Source of the DNA: Halorussus aquaticus
GTDB taxonomy: Archaea; Halobacteriota; Halobacteria; Halobacteriales; Haladaptataceae
Assembly: GCF_024218795.1 (NCBI RefSeq)
Contig: NZ_CP100400.1
Coordinates: forward strand, 1,550,001-1,614,000
Direction: 5' to 3'
DNA: 64,000 bases
Shown here: positions 5,443 through 11,937 of the stretch, piece after piece
Position numbering within the stretch: the first letter of the stretch is position 1
How the letters are laid out: each line of letters starts with the position of its first letter
Notes under the pieces: model-generated
Database searches by the model: none
Told to the model about the DNA's origin: nothing
What the model saw: the letters and a program-made list of their open reading frames with translations, nothing else
Program-made: the position numbers and the translations under genes

Positions 5443-6675
5443 TCAGCGAATCACGTCGAGACCGTTGTTCTGCTCGACCTTGTCCTGACCGCCGTCGCTC
5501 TTGGTCCCCCACTCCGCGGACTCGTTGGTCTCGCGGGAGGTACCGCCAGTTCCGCCGAGACCTCCGGCGTCTTCGACGTTCTGACTGGCGTCGAACGACT
5601 GGGCGTCCACGTCGCGCATCTCCTGACGGGACTTGTCGGCCTGCTTCTGGGTACTCGGACCGAGGACCTGCGCGCTCTGGACGCCGGTCATGATGGCCAT
5701 GACCCGGACCTTACCCTTGTAGTTGTCCTGGATGCGCGCGCCCCAGATGACGTTCGCGCTGGCTTCGAGTCGCTCGGTGATGTTCGAGGCGATTGACTCG
5801 GCCTCCTTGAGCGTGAGGTCCGGACCGCCCGTGATGTGGACGAGTCCACCGGACGCGCCGCGGTAGTCCACGTCCAGCAGCGGGTGGTTCATCGCGTCGC
5901 GGACGACTTCCTCGGTCTTGTTCTTGTCCTGGGTCTCGCCGACCAGCATCACCGCGACGCCGCCCTGATTCATGATAGAGGTCATGTCGGCGTAGTCGAG
6001 ATTGATGAGCGAGGGCTGGGTGATGGTCTCCGAGATGCCCTTGACGGTCTCGGCGATGATCTGGTCCATCACCGAGAACGCCTTGCCGATGGGCAGGTTC
6101 GGGACGTAGTCGAGCAGTCGGTTGTTGTCCAGCACGATGATGGAGTCGGCCTCGTTGCGGAGCTTTTCGAGGCCCTCCTCGGCTTTCACCGTGCGTGCGC
6201 GCTCGACGTTGAACGGCGTCGAGACCATCCCGACGACGATAGCGCCCTGCTCTTTGGCGATCTTCGAGACGACGGGGGCCGCACCGGTGCCGGTGCCGCC
6301 GCCCATCCCCGCGGTGACGAACACGAGGTCCGCGTCGCCGAGTACCTCCTTGATGGTGCCCTGCGCCATCTCGGTGGCGCGCTCGCCCATCGAGGGGTCG
6401 CCGCCAGCGCCGAGTCCGTTGGTCAGGGACTTGCCGACCAGAATCTTCGTGTCGGCCTCGATCATCTTGAGGTGCTGCTTGTCGGTGTTGATAGCGACCG
6501 TGTCAGCGCCTTCGACGCCGATGTTGTAGAGTCGGTTGACGGTGTTGTTGCCCGCACCGCCACAGCCGACGATGACGATTCGGGGGTCGCCGAACTCGTC
6601 GCCGTCGGTCGAGGCGTCCATCTCGCGGCTCTCTTCCTCGGCGTTCTCGAGGGCGTCTTGAACGATATCCTGCAT
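5443..6675 (-). CDS. ftsZ2: Cell division protein FtsZ2
   Basis: A tubulin-family GTPase of 410 residues that forms part of the midcell ring. The GTP site includes [13 protein letters not shown] (38-50) and the tubulin signature GGGTGTG (125-131). The T7-type catalytic loop region NLDYADM follows. The acidic, low-complexity C-terminal tail ends NNGLDVIR, which from memory is the FtsZ2-type ending rather than FtsZ1. The gene follows cdrS on the same strand with 3 bases between stop and start, so they form one operon. In haloarchaea FtsZ1 and FtsZ2 act together, with FtsZ2 needed for constriction. Paralog assignment rests on the tail and the cdrS linkage. Confidence 0.93.
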
Positions 6676-6678
6676 GGT

Positions 6679-6861
6679 CTACACCTTCGCCCACGAGCGC
6701 TTGTTCGCGGTCTGCTCGGTCTGTTCTTCTTCGTGTTCGTTCAACATGTCTCGAACGGCGGCCCGAATCGCTTCGCTCCGGTTCGGGAACTCGCCCGTCT
6801 CGACCATCTGTTCGACCTCTTCTATCTGCTGTTTCGGAATGCGCAGTGTCACACGCTCCAT
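6679..6861 (-). CDS. cdrS: Ribbon-helix-helix regulator CdrS
   Basis: A 60-residue protein that is almost entirely one ribbon-helix-helix domain. [11 protein letters not shown] forms the strand and [17 protein letters not shown] the second helix with the N-R-S-E turn typical of MetJ/Arc folds. A short polar tail follows. Haloarchaeal CdrS is a known regulator of cell division genes, always just upstream of ftsZ2, and that arrangement is seen here. The ATG at 6861 is preceded by an AT-rich leader. The upstream region contains palindromes of the size RHH dimers bind (see the regulatory entry), so autoregulation is plausible. Confidence 0.9.
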
Positions 6862-7047
6862 ATTTTGTAATTTCCCCTGTTGTTAGTAAGACGGCACGCG
6901 ACTTCCAGCGCGTCCTGTCTTACACTTTGTTAGCCCTCAACACGGGACAATTCCCGTCTTCGGGGCGACGTGTAAGACGACCGTCTTACGTGCCACTATC
7001 CACATAGTCAAAACTTAAATAGTTAACGCCCGTCGTAAAACACTGTC
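6862..7047 (-). promoter_or_regulatory. cdrS-ftsZ2 control region with GTAAGAC/GTCTTAC palindromes
   Basis: A 186-base spacer between cdrL and cdrS. On the minus strand a TATA-like CTATTTAAG lies near 7012-7022. About 25 bases downstream, at the expected transcription start, is a near-perfect palindrome formed by GTAAGAC (6972-6978) and GTCTTAC (6983-6989) with a 4-base spacer. Further down the leader the same heptamers recur at 6886-6892 and 6917-6923. A related dyad, GTCGTAA at 7032-7038 and TTACGAC at 7048-7054, spans the cdrL stop codon. The repeated half-sites, their symmetry and their position over the start site suggest a repressor operator. The natural candidates are the RHH proteins CdrL and CdrS encoded on either side; their actual sites are not shown by the sequence. 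Confidence 0.7.
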
Positions 7048-7710
7048 TTACGACCGGTCGAGAACGTCGGCCGCGGGCGTTCGGCGGCCGCAGCTCGGAC
7101 AGAACCCCCAGTCGGAGCGCACTTCGTCACCGCACTCACAGAAGACCCGTCGTGCGGCCTTCTCTCCGCAGTTCGGACAGTAGACGTGGTCGTCGGACAG
7201 CGACTCGCCGCACTGTCCGCAGGCGTTCTCTGTCTCGTCGGACGGCTCGCGGCCGTCCGCGTCGGCGGCGCGTTCCGGCGGGCGTCCGTCGGACAACTCG
7301 TCAGACGCGTTCGCGTGCCGGTCGGCCGACGCGTCGGTTCGGGCCGCATCGGTGTCGAGCGTCACGTTGACGTTCACGTCTCGTGCGCGCTCGCCGCGGT
7401 CGCGTTCGCGCTCGCTGGCCTCCCACGCGGCGAGTCGCTCGGCGACGAGTTCGTCCACGCGCTGCGCGAGGACGTCGTCGATCCTGTCGGCACTTCGGCG
7501 CTCGCCGTGGCCACCCTCCGAGGTGGTCGCTCGGCGTACGTCGCGCACGCGGTCCGCGTCCGCGGTGGGGCTGCGACGGGCGCGGTTCGCGTCGTCGGAC
7601 GCGTCGAGGTACTCGCGGAGCGCCTCCCGCATGATCTCGCTCTTCGAGGCGTCGCGGGCCTCGATGCGCTCGACCAGTTCCTCGTCCGCGCGGAACGTTA
7701 TCTTGCTCAT
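7048..7710 (-). CDS. cdrL: CdrL: ribbon-helix-helix regulator with double zinc ribbon
   Basis: A 220-residue protein with an N-terminal RHH domain (MSKITFRADEELVERIEARD...SEIMREALREYL, residues 1-40), a long charged and probably disordered middle, and two C-terminal zinc ribbons. The first ribbon is CGQCGES...CPNCGE and the second is CECGDE...CPSCGRR. This matches CdrL, the long partner of CdrS, described in haloarchaea as controlling the cdrS-ftsZ2 operon. It lies immediately upstream of that operon on the same strand. The ATG at 7710 is about 35 bases downstream of an AT-rich stretch near 7740-7750 (minus-strand GAAATAGG), consistent with a very short leader. Confidence 0.85.
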   Translation of the reverse strand: MSKITFRADEELVERIEARDASKSEIMREALREYLDASDDANRARRSPTADADRVRDVRRATTSEGGHGERRSADRIDDVLAQRVDELVAERLAAWEASERERDRGERARDVNVNVTLDTDAARTDASADRHANASDELSDGRPPERAADADGREPSDETENACGQCGESLSDDHVYCPNCGEKAARRVFCECGDEVRSDWGFCPSCGRRTPAADVLDRS

Positions 7711-7942
7711 GTGCCAGTTCGACCCACAGGTTTACGACCAACCTATTTCAATCTTCCCCAAACATGTCCGACGAGCGGAAGACGATGGGAGACGGGCGGC
7801 CGTCGGGAGGTTTCCGGTCCGTCTGTCGTTCAGAACGCCGCGTAACGTGTGACCTCATCCGATGGTCACCGGGGGTGTCGGGGTCGAACACTGAACGGCG
7901 ACGTGACTCGGTGGCAGGCGACGCGCTCTCACCGAATAATAA

Positions 7943-7951
7943 CCCTTAAGT
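7943..7951 (+). promoter_or_regulatory. Putative TATA box of tRNA-Tyr
   Basis: CCTTAAGTC sits in an AT-rich island (AATAATAACCCTTAAG) about 35 bases before the mature 5' end of tRNA-Tyr. That distance fits an archaeal box A with a short 5' leader removed by RNase P. The spacer 7711-7981 holds no credible gene. Confidence 0.5.
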
Positions 7952-7981
7952 CTGGCAGGGCACCTACGTGAAACTGCGTGC

Positions 7982-8054
7982 CCGCCCTTAGCTCAGACTG
8001 GTAGAGCAGTCGACTGTAGATCGACTTGCCCCCCGTTCAAATCGGGGAGGGCGG
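7982..8054 (+). tRNA. tRNA-Tyr, anticodon GTA
   Basis: All arms can be drawn. The acceptor stem is CCGCCCT with AGGGCGG and begins with C1-G72, the archaeal tyrosine identity pair. The D arm is GCTC...GAGC. The anticodon stem GTCGA/TCGAC closes the loop CTGTAGA, giving anticodon GTA. The T arm is CCCCG-TTCAAAT-CGGGG. The gene has no intron and no encoded CCA. Its 3' end is repeated in degenerate form downstream, consistent with use as an integration site. Confidence 0.95.
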
Positions 8055-8060
8055 ATTTGT
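8042..8060. repeat. Copy 1 of island direct repeat (tRNA-Tyr 3' end)
   Basis: TCGGGGAGGGCGGATTTGT covers the end of the T arm, the acceptor 3' strand and 6 bases beyond. It matches copy 2 at 8153-8171 at 14 of 19 positions. Counting the preceding GTTCAAA, which is also shared with copy 2, the similarity starts at 8035. It is the probable intact attachment half. Confidence 0.55.
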
Positions 8061-8152
8061 TCTACAAATCCGATCGACGCGATTTGAGCCTGTGAGCCGC
8101 AGTCCCGGAACGGCCGAAGGCCGCACGCCCGGAACGTCTCACAACGTTCAAA

Positions 8153-8171
8153 TCGGAAAGAGCGGACTTCT
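8153..8171. repeat. Copy 2 of island direct repeat
   Basis: TCGGAAAGAGCGGACTTCT, preceded by GTTCAAA exactly as in the tRNA T arm (8146-8152). It differs from the copy at 11337-11355 at one of 19 positions. It lies about 100 bases past tRNA-Tyr, just before the truncated ATPase. Confidence 0.6.
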
Positions 8172-8199
8172 CCCGAATTTACAACGACGAGCGAAGCGA

Positions 8200-8628
8200 G
8201 TCCACGATTCAGAAACGCATTTTCCGTTCGTGGTCATCGACGAGGCCTCAACGCACTTCGACGCTCGGACCTACCGCCACGAGGTGGCGACCCAATGGAC
8301 GCCGCTCGCCAAGCGGTTCGCCAAGATTGGCGTGGACGTGTGCGGTCTCATCTGCCACTCCGGGAAGGACCTCCACCCCGAGGCGAAGCGGCTCTCGACA
8401 ATGCCGTACTTCAAGCGCGAGAAGAAGGTCGTGGACTTCTTCGAGCGGTGGCCTGCCGACGCCGATATGCCTGCTGACTCGTTGTTCGGTGGCTCCGTTG
8501 AGAATTTAGAGCCGACCGGGACCGAGTACGACCCTAACGACGCCGCGCCATGGTCGTGGGATTTGGAGTCCGATTTGTTCTCACTTGACCTCAACTGGTC
8601 ACAGCTACTCCATCGGATATCTTCCTAG
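8200..8628 (+). pseudogene. 3' fragment of a virus/plasmid-type P-loop ATPase
   Basis: About 142 codons resemble the C-terminal part of a DNA-translocase-like ATPase. FVVIDEAS is a Walker B motif. LICHSGKDLHPEAKRL and ENLEPTGTEYDPNDAAPWSWD resemble the conserved segments of the putative ATPases encoded by haloarchaeal pleolipoviruses and related plasmids. No Walker A motif or start codon precedes it; upstream the frame runs into the tRNA-derived repeat. It is therefore a truncated relic, joined to the repeat at about 8175-8200. Family assignment is from remembered motif patterns. The gene is GC-richer than the next one, suggesting separate origins. Confidence 0.6.
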
Positions 8629-8668
8629 ATGTAAAATAAGGATACAACTATCATTATGTTTCTCTAAT

Positions 8669-8680
8669 GCAGAAAGCTTA
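8669..8680 (+). promoter_or_regulatory. Putative TATA box of the HEPN gene
   Basis: CTTAATAATACG is centred about 32 bases before the ATG at 8707. A start site 25-27 bases downstream would leave almost no leader, the common haloarchaeal arrangement. The whole 8629-8706 spacer is AT-rich, so the box is not unique. Confidence 0.45.
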
Positions 8681-8706
8681 ATAATACGTGATACGATTAA
8701 GGTTGC

Positions 8707-10176
8707 ATGCAAGAAATTAACTTCGAACTAAGAAAGAAACTTAAACTGGCTGTTGAAGATTACACATCATATATTGAAGAGCAAGAAGATGGTAAAATAC
8801 CGACATCGGAATATTTTATTCCCGGAGAGAAGGGAATGGAGAAGCAAGAAATTCCTAATATGAGCAAACTACCAGAGTTTTATGAGGAGAAACGCCCCGA
8901 ATTCTTCCGTGATTTAGCAAAGTGGTTTATCACATCTGGAAACTCATATAATCAGAAAAGCATCTTTAAGAAGATCGAAAAAGAAGACCACATCTCATAT
9001 CAATCAATAAAGGCTGAAGAGGCTGAAATGGACCAAATCATCACACAATACGAATCTGACTTTAGTTCTTTTGCAGGTCAAGTATTAGACTATGCTGGAT
9101 CATATGACTTCGATAGTGATGATTACGATCGGGCCTTTGAGGATTTCTTTGGGGAGAGATATGATAAGAAAACTTGGGAAAAGCACATACTCCCAATAAG
9201 TAATTTAGAAGTTGAAGATTCCATTAGCTTAGAAGAAGACATTAGCTGGTTGAATAATGCAGATATAGAAAATATCTCCATAGAGATTGATGATATTACT
9301 GACTCCGAATTAGCCGCTATAAGATCTTCTCAAAACAATTTCGCCACGAAATCAACCTTACGAAGTTATGGCTACGATTGGAAGAGTATCATTAGAATCG
9401 AATTTAATGGCTCACTATTGACTAATAAATTGGTTGAATCGATAATAACCTCTTTGAGGCTATTTTCACCTACATCCTCAGAGATTCATTCTGGGAAAAT
9501 ATATATGATAGAAAAAACAGGTAAGACCTATCGAGAAGGAATTGAAGATTGCGTTGGTGTCTCTCCTATTGAAAACCCGACTTCAGGGGTAAACCCAAGA
9601 AATTGGCAAAGCCTCGATAACGAGAGTGAATTCCGGGAGTTTTGGTCGGAATACAGAAACTACCTAAATCTATCTCAAGCAGAAGAAAAAGCAGGTAAAC
9701 TTTCAGGGGCACTTCGTCGATTTAATGAATCTTATTTGAAGCACAATCTTGAAGACAAAATCGTTGATATAGTTATAGCGTTTGAATCTACTCTATTACG
9801 CGATGTACCGAAAAATTCCTCCTATTCTTTTCGACTAGGTTTGCGTGCTGGACTCCTACTTGAGGACTTTGTCGACTACGATCGCGAAGTGATACGCAAC
9901 TTGTTCAAGAACTTGTATTATACTCGTGGAGAGATTGTACATCAGGACCGTGAACTTACAGAAATACAACAAGATGACCAATTCCAGGAGATTGATGCGG
10001 TCTCGTCAGAAGAGAACATATCTGATTATAGACTCTTGCTTGCTAAATCGATAATCAAATATTTCGACCTTATTAACGAATACTCTCTAAGTATTACACA
10101 AATAAATCAAAAACTTGACCAAGCGGTTTGGGAAACTGCTTCGTTTGAATTGGGAAATAATGAATATGATGACTAA
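8707..10176 (+). CDS. AT-rich accessory protein with C-terminal Apea-like HEPN domain
   Basis: A 489-residue protein of foreign composition: codons end mostly in A/T, and it is rich in Lys, Ile and Asn, unlike every other gene in the window. Residues 1-330 are mostly polar and helical with no motif I recognise. The C-terminal part (about 335-465) fits the Apea-like HEPN pattern: IVDIVIAFESTLL, then SFRLGLRAGLLLE, then LYYTRGEIVH, where R407 and H412 make the R-x4-H signature of HEPN RNases. HEPN proteins of this kind act in abortive infection and anti-phage defence by cutting RNA. Position in a tRNA-linked island next to a phage-type ATPase relic supports a defence role, but target and trigger are unknown. 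Confidence 0.75.
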   Translation: MQEINFELRKKLKLAVEDYTSYIEEQEDGKIPTSEYFIPGEKGMEKQEIPNMSKLPEFYEEKRPEFFRDLAKWFITSGNSYNQKSIFKKIEKEDHISYQSIKAEEAEMDQIITQYESDFSSFAGQVLDYAGSYDFDSDDYDRAFEDFFGERYDKKTWEKHILPISNLEVEDSISLEEDISWLNNADIENISIEIDDITDSELAAIRSSQNNFATKSTLRSYGYDWKSIIRIEFNGSLLTNKLVESIITSLRLFSPTSSEIHSGKIYMIEKTGKTYREGIEDCVGVSPIENPTSGVNPRNWQSLDNESEFREFWSEYRNYLNLSQAEEKAGKLSGALRRFNESYLKHNLEDKIVDIVIAFESTLLRDVPKNSSYSFRLGLRAGLLLEDFVDYDREVIRNLFKNLYYTRGEIVHQDRELTEIQQDDQFQEIDAVSSEENISDYRLLLAKSIIKYFDLINEYSLSITQINQKLDQAVWETASFELGNNEYDD

Positions 10177-10203
10177 TTCTAATAAATGGTATGAAAGTGT
10201 CTT

Positions 10204-10250
10204 AGCTCAGATGAGCTTCAACCGACCCACCCACCTACCCACCTTGTGGG
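10204..10250. terminator. Possible termination hairpins between the HEPN and PH-like genes
   Basis: AGCTCA (10204-10209) pairs with TGAGCT (10212-10217). Then CCCAC-CTT-GTGGG (10238-10250) forms a second small hairpin after a run of CCCAC-like units. The stretch lies between two convergent genes, where a bidirectional terminator would be expected. No oligo-T tract follows on the plus strand, so this is a weak call. Confidence 0.3.
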
Positions 10251-10254
10251 GTAT

Positions 10255-10752
10255 TTACTCGTGACCGCGAACAGCGTGAGCAATATCCTGAATCGCTCTA
10301 TCGGTCGACGCAAACGTGTATGTCGTATTCGGAGTTCTGAACTTTATCGTAGACCGTTTCAGAAACTGTCCAGCAACGAGAATTGCCAGGCTAATTAATC
10401 CGAAGAATACAATCGCTAGCATCAGGTCCGGTATTGAAGAATCACCTACGAACTCGGCAACCCCCGTAAGAAAAGCCAATACGCCGAAGCCTCCGCCCCA
10501 ATAGAGGAAACTTTTCGGATACGACGGTGCGCTGAACTCGATAGAATTGATTCCGTTGAGCGAGATATCAATTACATTCTCTCCTTGGACGTACACGACC
10601 CGATTCGGCGTACAGGCCAATTTTCCTTTTCTACTGTCTGAGACTGCATCAACGCTCTCGAACGCCTCGACCTCCTTCGTCACGGACTCGTTTTTCGCTA
10701 AATATGAGTCTAACTTCATCTCTAATCGCTCTATCCTCTCAAAACTAGCCAC
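10255..10752 (-). CDS. Membrane protein with split bacterial PH-like domain
   Basis: A 165-residue protein starting at GTG. An N-terminal helix (RIERLEMKLDSYLAKNESV) leads into a strand-rich segment, KGKLACTPNRVVYVQGENVIDISL, typical of bacterial PH (YdbS/YokE-like) domains. Two membrane helices follow: FLYWGGGFGVLAFLTGVAEF at about 84-103 and LMLAIVFFGLISLAILVAG at about 109-127. A second strand segment, STIKFRTPNTTYTFAS, completes the fold. PH-like domain proteins with helical hairpins occur in membrane stress and defence modules, but nothing here fixes a role. It starts 17 bases after the stop of the broken wHTH gene and lies inside the island; base composition is intermediate. Confidence 0.65.
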   Translation of the reverse strand: MASFERIERLEMKLDSYLAKNESVTKEVEAFESVDAVSDSRKGKLACTPNRVVYVQGENVIDISLNGINSIEFSAPSYPKSFLYWGGGFGVLAFLTGVAEFVGDSSIPDLMLAIVFFGLISLAILVAGQFLKRSTIKFRTPNTTYTFASTDRAIQDIAHAVRGHE

Positions 10753-10769
10753 TTTAAATTACCGAGAAG

Positions 10770-11057
10770 TTATCCACGAAGTACGCGCGGGTTCGGCCTT
10801 GGTTGATGTTGCGCGTCGATTTTCCCTTCCAAGTACCGCATCCCCCATGTCGTAATCTCGTACATCTCTCCGTGAACTGGCGCGATGAGTCCTGTTGACG
10901 CCAGTACCTTACAACGCTCTCAAATCCGTCGCTTCGACGCTCGTAGCCTCGGAAGTGACTTCATCACTGACGGCGATGACCACGGCTCCTCGTTCAGGTG
11001 TTCGAGGATTCGGTCCTCGAGTTGCTGCATCCATCTTGCTGACTTCCGAGGTGGCAC
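10770..11057 (-). pseudogene. Winged-helix (PhiH1 repressor-like) gene with an in-frame stop
   Basis: A 95-codon frame opens at GTG 11057, 9 bases after a good GGAGGG. It reads ARWMQQLEDRILEHLNEEPW...RLRASKRRI, hits TGA at codon 46 (10920-10922), and then continues in the same frame as ERCKVLASTGLIAPVHGEMY and EITTWGMRYLEGKIDAQHQ to TAA at 10770. Both halves match the haloarchaeal winged-helix pattern (recognition helix, GLI..VHGEMYEIT wing, YLEGxIDA end). The TGA stands where Arg is usual, a one-base CGA-to-TGA change. No frameshift is needed, so the lesion is recent or the copy is a sequencing variant. Confidence 0.75.
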
Positions 11058-11060
11058 GAA

Positions 11061-11323
11061 TTATCCCTCCTCTGGCGTTCCCGTCTGGTGACCGTTGTTG
11101 TTCTCGACTCCGTTGGTATAATCGTCCGGTGCGTCTTCGGCCGTGTCCAGCTCGCCATCGAGGTACTTCTCGCCCTGCTCGGTGATGACGTAGACGCCGT
11201 TTCGAGATGCTTCAGAAGCCCGTGTTCCTCCAGCGTCTCCACCCAACGAGACACGTGTTGACGAAATACTAGAACGCACTCGTTATCGGCAGTGTTCGTC
11301 GCCTGATAGAGAACGTGAATTGT
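11061..11323 (-). pseudogene. Second winged-helix gene, frameshifted
   Basis: One frame gives IHVLYQATNTADNECVLVF and HVSRWVETLEEHGLLKHL, the helical part of a winged-helix domain. A second frame then gives SRNGVYVITEQGEKYLDGEL and a polar tail ending at TAA 11061-11063. The two halves make one PhiH1-repressor-like domain if a small indel near 11205-11215 is repaired. The 5' end is also unclear, since a TAG stands at 11324-11326. It ends 3 bases before the GTG of the other broken winged-helix gene, so the pair looks like a decayed operon leading to the PH-like gene. Confidence 0.6.
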
Positions 11324-11336
11324 CTAGTAACGTCAC

Positions 11337-11355
11337 TCGGAAAAAGCGGACTTCT
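11337..11355. repeat. Copy 3 of island direct repeat, distal boundary
   Basis: TCGGAAAAAGCGGACTTCT matches the copy at 8153-8171 at 18 of 19 positions, in the same orientation, 3.18 kb away. Immediately beyond it the GC-rich PepSY gene ends, so the repeat marks the change from island to chromosome. Confidence 0.65.
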
Positions 11356-11367
11356 TCACCTCACGAT

Positions 11368-11937
11368 TCACGTTCGAGGGACGGCGGCGACGTGAACCTC
11401 GCTCTCACCGTCCGGCGTCGAATACTCGACTTCGTAGACGAGCGTCGAGTTCTCGATTTCGAGCGACACCCGCGAGACGTTCGTCACCGTCGCGCTCCGG
11501 TTCCGGACGACTTCCACCGCTTCGACGGCCGAGCGCATCTCCGAGACGTTGCGGGTCCGATTGGCGGGCAGGAGACCCTCGGAAGCACCGCCCACGAGGA
11601 CGCCCCCGTTCTCGACGCTGCGTATCGCGCCGGTCCCGGCGTGGACGTCTACCTCGAACCGCGCCGCGTCCTCGCGCAGCACTTCGACCTCCCAGACCGG
11701 CGTCCCGTCCTTGCGTTCGCGTTCCACGCCGATGGCCGTCCCGTTCGTCTCGTTCTCGGCGGCGACCATCGCATCGACTGCGGTCACGTTTCGGGCGGTC
11801 TCTTCGACCGTCGGCGCGGGACTCGTGGCTCGCTCTTCCGACGAGTGGGACACGGCGCTCGGAGCGGCCGCTCCGACCGGTGCGCCGACGACCAGCAGGA
11901 CGGCGAGTCCGAGCACGAACCGTGGATAGCGTGTCAT
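11368..11937 (-). CDS. Secreted PepSY-domain protein
   Basis: A 189-residue protein with a Sec-type signal (MTRYPRFVLGLAVLLVVGAPVG, likely cleaved or anchored near residue 25). The mature part contains two PepSY-like units. The first runs from VTAVDAMVAAENETNGTAIG through WEVEVLREDAARFEVDVHAGTGAI. The second runs from SEMRSAVEAVEVVRNR through LVYEVEYSTPDGESEVHVAA. PepSY modules are extracytoplasmic and are thought to inhibit or bind peptidases or ligands; the specific role here is unknown. It is the first chromosomal-type gene beyond the island and lies convergent to it. Confidence 0.75.
   Translation of the reverse strand: MTRYPRFVLGLAVLLVVGAPVGAAAPSAVSHSSEERATSPAPTVEETARNVTAVDAMVAAENETNGTAIGVERERKDGTPVWEVEVLREDAARFEVDVHAGTGAIRSVENGGVLVGGASEGLLPANRTRNVSEMRSAVEAVEVVRNRSATVTNVSRVSLEIENSTLVYEVEYSTPDGESEVHVAAVPRT

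Follow-up and report, generated by a model that had tools for sequence, protein, structure and literature searches.

Behind the tRNA-Tyr genes of Escherichia coli lie tandem units that each end in a copy of the tRNA 3' end (the RtT or rtT repeats of tyrT-tyrV, RF00391), and in each of them an upstream antisense segment, GGGGAAGGAT, pairs with this copy and closes a hairpin domain. The rtT repeats have been known for decades, to our knowledge without an accepted origin. Their copy number varies among strains, RtT being found at 1-14 places in 4695 of 5426 genomes, and a tandem GA motif has been described in them in CaCoFold work (PMC7657543). The cassettes and attC sites of integrons also stack in tandem and present a folded hairpin with a variable tip at the cassette end, with a GTT-adjacent junction. 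SNJ2-type proviruses integrate at tRNA 3' ends and encode a VP8-like ATPase, and haloarchaeal MITEs, PATEs and small mobile repeats are short, non-coding, repeated and palindromic (PMC3119063).

The locus described here lies in a 64,000-nt window of Halorussus aquaticus (contig NZ_CP100400.1, positions 1,550,001 to 1,614,000 of the forward strand; coordinates are counted from the first base of this stretch). The haloarchaeal unit found behind its tRNA-Tyr gene has the RtT layout, in which an antisense-paired copy of the tRNA 3' end closes a hairpin domain in tandem units, and is RtT-like in design, not a member of RF00391. The two have no sequence relation, and the RtT covariance model was unmatched in 7700-11500 compared to four RtT matches in the E. 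coli control. In E. coli, the rtT copy spans the 19 terminal nt, CCA included, and its antisense segment pairs with the T-stem and acceptor, whereas the haloarchaeal arm is directed at the T-loop; the haloarchaeal family occurs at approximately 27 isoacceptors and at aspS, compared to RtT as viewed here at tyrT-tyrV. An Rfam cmscan of 7700-11500, with E up to 10, returned the tRNA alone and no family for the unit, and the open-access papers searched do not describe it.

The likeness to integrons extends to a 1.6-kb interval with an oxidoreductase gene between two units in the genome G029. In contrast to integrons, no IntI was found, there is no attI, the units lack ORFs and they target about 22-33 nt at the 3' end of a gene. 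The PF00589 matches in the window's genome, considered for an integron integrase, did not lie at unit arrays except for one element adjoining a tRNA-Val unit. The strand bias of wobble pairs in helix P1 of the unit is opposite to attC bottom-strand use (PMC8946536). MITEs and PATEs as described have either no target duplication or one of the transposase type, and no gene-3'-end specificity has been described for them (PMC3119063). We consider it somewhat probable (roughly 0.55) that two things are stacked behind tRNA-Tyr, namely a hairpin cassette that inserts at gene 3' ends and a pleolipovirus-type provirus that later decayed.

The tRNA-Tyr locus and its repeated 3' ends

The tRNA-Tyr (GTA) host gene occupies 7982-8055 on the forward strand (ARAGORN; Rfam tRNA), and its 3' end, GTTCAAATCGGGGAGGGCGGA (8035-8055, forward strand), is the sequence that is repeated. 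The three similar 19-mers reported in an earlier note were found as TCGGGGAGGGCGGATTTGT at 8042-8060 (the tRNA-Tyr 3' end), TCGGAAAGAGCGGACTTCT at 8153-8171 and TCGGAAAAAGCGGACTTCT at 11337-11355; copies 1 and 2 are identical at 14 of 19 positions and copies 2 and 3 at 18 of 19. With up to three mismatches, the 21-mer GTTCAAATCGGGGAGGGCGGA occurred in the window only at 8035 and 8146, compared to 0 sites expected from 100 shuffles, and the repeats are therefore above chance. A repeat common across the genome, which the note had named as adverse to its reading, was not seen: the 17-mer CGGAAARAGCGGACTTC, shared by copies 2 and 3, is exact at these two places only, and one site elsewhere has two mismatches.

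The island behind the tRNA was said to be unlike the surrounding chromosome, and this was borne out. The GC content is 65-70% in the flanks and drops to 36-40% across a HEPN gene, and a truncated ATPase, the AT-rich HEPN gene, a weak PH-like protein and broken winged-helix (wHTH) genes were all recovered. Nor is 8060-11337 conserved core sequence in relatives, as G014 differs between the borders. In contrast, 8056-8145, taken in the note as part of the decayed element, proved to be a conserved structured unit. Upstream of tRNA-Tyr (5443-7981), ftsZ1, a ribbon-helix gene and a zinc-ribbon gene keep their order in most relatives, and this block provides a stable anchor for the tRNA-Tyr hotspot.

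A conserved hairpin unit directly behind tRNA-Tyr

The 111-bp unit begins and ends with the tRNA 3' end; in between come, in this order, a small hairpin, a stretch antisense to the T-loop of the tRNA and a conserved hairpin, all read on the forward strand. The small hairpin H1 (GGATTTGTTCTACAAATCC, 8053-8071; from sequence and fold) lies directly 3' of the tRNA, and its type in the window is also present in the Haladaptatus-group genomes G023 and G040. The antisense arm (CGATTTGAGC, 8080-8089) pairs with either 8146-8155 or the tRNA T-loop at 8035-8044, according to the alignment fold and pair counts. The P2 hairpin (8090-8145; covariance model match and covariation) has a variable tip and the conserved parts GAG(T/C)CGCA...CGTCTC, in the window GAGTCGCA...CGTCTC. 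The distal tRNA 3'-end copy (8146-8171) closes the unit and is also the left border of the provirus remnant; together with the antisense arm it forms helix P1, which closes the P2 hairpin. The covariance model R1 matched 8073-8155 with 81.4 bits (5.8e-18). When the tRNA-Tyr loci of approximately 35 relatives were aligned, the tRNA 3' end was seen to recur 83-160 bp behind the gene in most of them, and the intervening DNA was a conserved structured body made of a variable H1, the antisense segment and P2.

The covariation of the unit is very strong. In 124 aligned units (RNAalifold), 97.8% of cells were paired compared to 22-51% when the pairing was slid, and double-sided changes were seen in 315 cells compared to 77.5 in shuffles, none of 500 shuffles reaching the observed value. 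Conserved unpaired bases were also present. In P1, G.U pairs outnumbered A.C pairs (90 vs 17), and when the column holding 54 of the G.U pairs was left out the bias was weaker (binomial 0.013, uncorrected for relatedness). The excess of G.U over A.C in P1 indicates that folding of the tRNA-sense strand is favoured, as in a transcript. Wobble pairs in P2/P3 were few and without bias (12 G.U vs 7 A.C). For comparison, haloarchaeal tRNA acceptor stems had 2.4% G.U and zero A.C.

The wobble bias in P1 makes an RNA role a serious rival to insertion, even if we hold it less probable. The unit would then serve mainly as a functional RNA, produced by read-through as a structured trailer of the tRNA, and its copies would expand and contract by repeat recombination; P1 would sequester the antisense arm and spare the tRNA, and P2 would bind a protein or act as an sRNA, a role presumably like that proposed for E. 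coli rtT RNA. The strong covariation, the conserved unpaired bases, the G.U excess in P1 and the match to the layout of RtT, which is termed an sRNA in E. coli annotations, all agree with such a role, and the scarcity of wobble pairs in P2/P3 does not. It is also countered by turnover within one genus, from 5 to 37 units per genome, and by aspS units with a foreign gene end, described below.

Distribution among haloarchaea

A covariance model was built from the unit body and run on 59 relatives and 292 complete Halobacteria genomes. Units were found in 50 of the 59 relatives, with up to 36 per genome, and in 276 of the 292 sampled haloarchaeal genomes, representing 71 of 76 genera; the counts across the 292 genomes are lower bounds, and part of the matches has no tRNA link. 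In the window's genome, each of the 11 matches below 1e-6 followed the 3' end of a tRNA, or else an att copy of such an end (the Tyr, Phe, Glu, Asn, Asp, Arg, Ser, Met, Gly and Lys tRNAs and an att copy assigned to tRNA-Val by its 3' sequence). In five genomes checked, 77 of 104 matches were 3' of tRNAs of approximately 27 isoacceptors and ended in a copy of the 3' end of their own tRNA, with 0-1 mismatch over 22 nt in 60 of the 77; about a quarter of the matches were not at tRNAs. Arrays in these five genomes held up to 5 units in tandem. Phage, plasmid and viral collections yielded no unit, with one strict-pattern query and otherwise a single sequence as query. The presence of the cassette in nearly every haloarchaeon sampled, mostly at tRNA genes, suggests that it is an unrecognised small mobile or RNA-producing element.

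Several related arrangements were observed. Intergenic repeats of a second, multi-branched family run from GACTGAAAGGGGC to GGGGGCTTTC and enclose a P2-type hairpin (loci L343, L344, L345 and L347 in G010; L325, L328, L329, L331, L332 and L352 in G015). A known RNA family was rejected as a source, with no Rfam match for the unit or for these intergenic repeats, which also had no TnpB link; an origin from TnpB/omegaRNA (IS200/IS605) was rejected as well, ten TnpB loci in two genomes having no unit. In the Arg-CCT and Ser-GGA units of G005, the Arg-CCT unit of G010 and the Gly-TCC unit of G015, the copy switches after the T-loop to a common module, TTCCGAAAGACGC..., as if a different element may have replaced the acceptor part of the copy. 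The 1.6-kb interval at tRNA-Tyr of G029 (L097 7353-8947) carries a luciferase-family oxidoreductase gene, whose same-genus homologues are merely 49-51% identical, between two unit copies, and is possibly a cargo-bearing cassette. At tRNA-Tyr of G188 (L393 2117-4157), a 1.9-kb element has identical 103-bp units on both sides.

Matching to the target and proposed insertion at gene 3' ends

The antisense arm had 0.95 mismatches of 9 to its own tRNA compared to 2.46 to other tRNAs. In about 8 of 11 discordant cases the arm matched the gene end, not the decayed copy, and because its fit to the tRNA slightly exceeds that to the copy, it may act as an antisense on the tRNA. The base before TTC was G in 119 of 119 distinct units; an invariant G and a hairpin would suit an attC-like site, although the T-loop of the tRNA in itself dictates GTTC. 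The similarity of P2 was almost independent of tRNA or genome and H1 tracked the tRNA, which indicates that P2 either moves from locus to locus or undergoes homogenisation among them. In the unit-free siblings G011 and G008, the tRNA directly adjoins the sequence found beyond the unit in G003.

One match to the covariance model, in G015, was at the 3' end of a protein gene, aspS. The aspS loci listed comprised 12 empty ones and 6 with a hairpin unit of the P2 or a related type (G026 falls outside both classes), a small sample with cassettes of mixed hairpin types. At the six occupied loci, the gene end and the displaced copy differed at 28 codons, 25 of them synonymously. Such differences point to divergence under coding constraint, which is not expected from simple duplication followed by decay. 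One of each pair of aspS gene ends is therefore most likely foreign, as would result from an insertion that brought its own gene end and not from local duplication. Insertion with displacement is supported by this comparison, and we infer it for the tRNAs. The aspS 3' ends of G000 (C1:1694196, minus strand), G004, G025 and G028 have the antisense-plus-copy layout with other inner loops, and the unit class is wider than the P2 type.

Two other routes to such an arrangement were considered. The units of one gene could spread between genomes by ordinary homologous recombination via the flanking repeats, a route that explains moves from one tRNA to another less easily. That the units are passive scars, left as partial att sites by repeated integrase-mediated integration and excision and then duplicated in tandem, we judge unlikely. 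Such scars would suit tRNA 3' ends, which are standard archaeal attB sites (PMC8371274), and true att copies of integrated elements do lie near units; in contrast, a conserved covarying P2 with an adapted antisense arm over 71 genera is not expected of scars, the att copies of elements are bounded differently (by upstream anticodon-stem sequence or as 14 nt alone), and the phage, plasmid and viral collections held no units with the queries tried. The unit was also rejected as a virus's own attP, as both in G001 (Tyr) and at the tRNA-Val locus of the window's genome the unit was there first and the integrated element is located upstream of it.

A provirus remnant behind the unit

The interval 8172-11336 contains a decayed pleolipovirus-type provirus with a HEPN and a PH-like gene between its remnants. 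At 8227-8610 (forward strand), a VP8-like ATPase of the pleolipovirus kind survives as a stub of its C-terminal third (PHROG 1979, E 1.1e-40; intact homologue in G001), with 46-67% identity to proteins of pleomorphic viruses by tblastn (Humcor2 67%, HHPV-1 61%, HRPV-1 VP8 54%). It is followed by an AT-rich cargo gene of 489 aa (8707-10176, forward strand) with a C-terminal HEPN-like R-x4-H motif, RGEIVH, at residue 407, of which Arg and His are retained across the aligned homologues; it had no Pfam, PADLOC or viral (PHROG) family match, and PADLOC found no defence family in the island cargo. On the reverse strand lie a gene for a 165-aa protein with a weak PH-like match (10255-10752; bPH_3, E 0.14, below cut-off) and broken winged-helix genes (10769-11238), with 71-80% identity by blastn to provirus sequence in G001 and G015. 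The right border is a decayed attachment-site copy (11318-11355, forward strand) at a position common to G014.

The account of an element that integrated at tRNA-Tyr and decayed while keeping cargo is supported by the VP8-type ATPase stub, the wHTH remnants and a fuller element in the relative G001, where the same tRNA-Tyr holds an 11-kb element (L084 1849-12780), apparently an intact pleolipovirus-type provirus, with a Rep-like protein, a full-length ATPase and a tyrosine integrase. This integrase adjoins attR and is 61% identical to the SNJ2 integrase, and the tRNA end is repeated over 14 nt where the element terminates, consistent with the short att sites of SNJ2 (PMC8371274). A tyrosine integrase near the tRNA had been expected at related occupied sites, and besides the SNJ2-like integrase of G001 a remnant was found in G003, beside its att copy. 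As stated in the note, none was found within the island; the window remnant differs from an SNJ2-type provirus in consisting of a stub with unrelated cargo, and the window has no SNJ2-type integrase. In G015, the ATPase stub and wHTH region are kept at the same tRNA and the cargo differs from the window's HEPN and PH-like genes (two ParB-like proteins and a nuclease-like protein, named by inspection; L081 2412-5984), which suggests that the inner provirus region is a cargo-exchange hotspot.

The exact empty site that had been predicted, with 8060 joined to about 11356, did not turn up. G014 is occupied as well, but differently: its flanking proteins are 88-97% identical, 1.0 kb of unrelated sequence replaces the island with the same right border, and no island gene is present. 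The copy at 8153, which the note had read as the trace of a separate integration step, is instead the distal end of a hairpin unit widespread in haloarchaea. Because both provirus borders in the window share GGAAA where the tRNA has GGGGA, the provirus most likely entered at the distal copy of the cassette, judging from these few bases. A different route of arrival for the cargo, with the ATPase stub present by chance, is very unlikely: no viral family matches the HEPN gene, whose composition also deviates, but the stub and wHTH remnants flank different cargo at the same tRNA in G015, and G001 holds the fuller element.

Discussion

The structure of the cassette, its distribution and the differences in its presence and absence were observed directly. 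In the reading that we prefer, of a cassette inserted before a provirus, the cassette (~75-160 bp, non-coding) would consist of a gene 3' end a, H1, the antisense of a and the P2 hairpin, placed directly upstream of the displaced end a'. Cassettes would insert at gene 3' ends, mostly of tRNA genes but also of aspS, at or near G|TTC; an inserted cassette would restore the gene with its own 3' end and push the old end downstream, so that tandem stacking is possible. The folded body may serve as the recognition element for recombination. The putative agent would be either a tyrosine recombinase with the folded hairpin as its substrate or homologous recombination via the flanking repeats. No recombinase tied to the cassettes was found, the integrases of the window's genome lying mostly away from units and two integrated elements being placed outside a pre-existing unit, and the units are short for circular intermediates, which is a point against insertion. 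Folding of the cassette is probable in the tRNA read-through transcript as well. A pleolipovirus-type provirus would have entered the same locus and then decayed, leaving the ATPase stub and the wHTH remnants on either side of cargo that changes.

A broader proposal is offered tentatively, as a doubtful extension: a class-wide system in which tiny cassettes would enter tRNA and aspS 3' ends through a folded, target-matched hairpin in an integron- and RtT-like way, re-tailoring the antisense arm to each target and providing decoy attachment sites for viruses, with E. coli RtT as the bacterial counterpart.

The rtT-like layout is now present in an unrelated domain of life, at approximately 27 tRNA isoacceptors and a protein gene. 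Copies of att sites behind haloarchaeal tRNAs should not be taken automatically for traces of proviruses. The fit of the arm to its target and the aspS codons, which mark some copies as coming from elsewhere, make the origin and function of the units testable in culturable haloarchaea.
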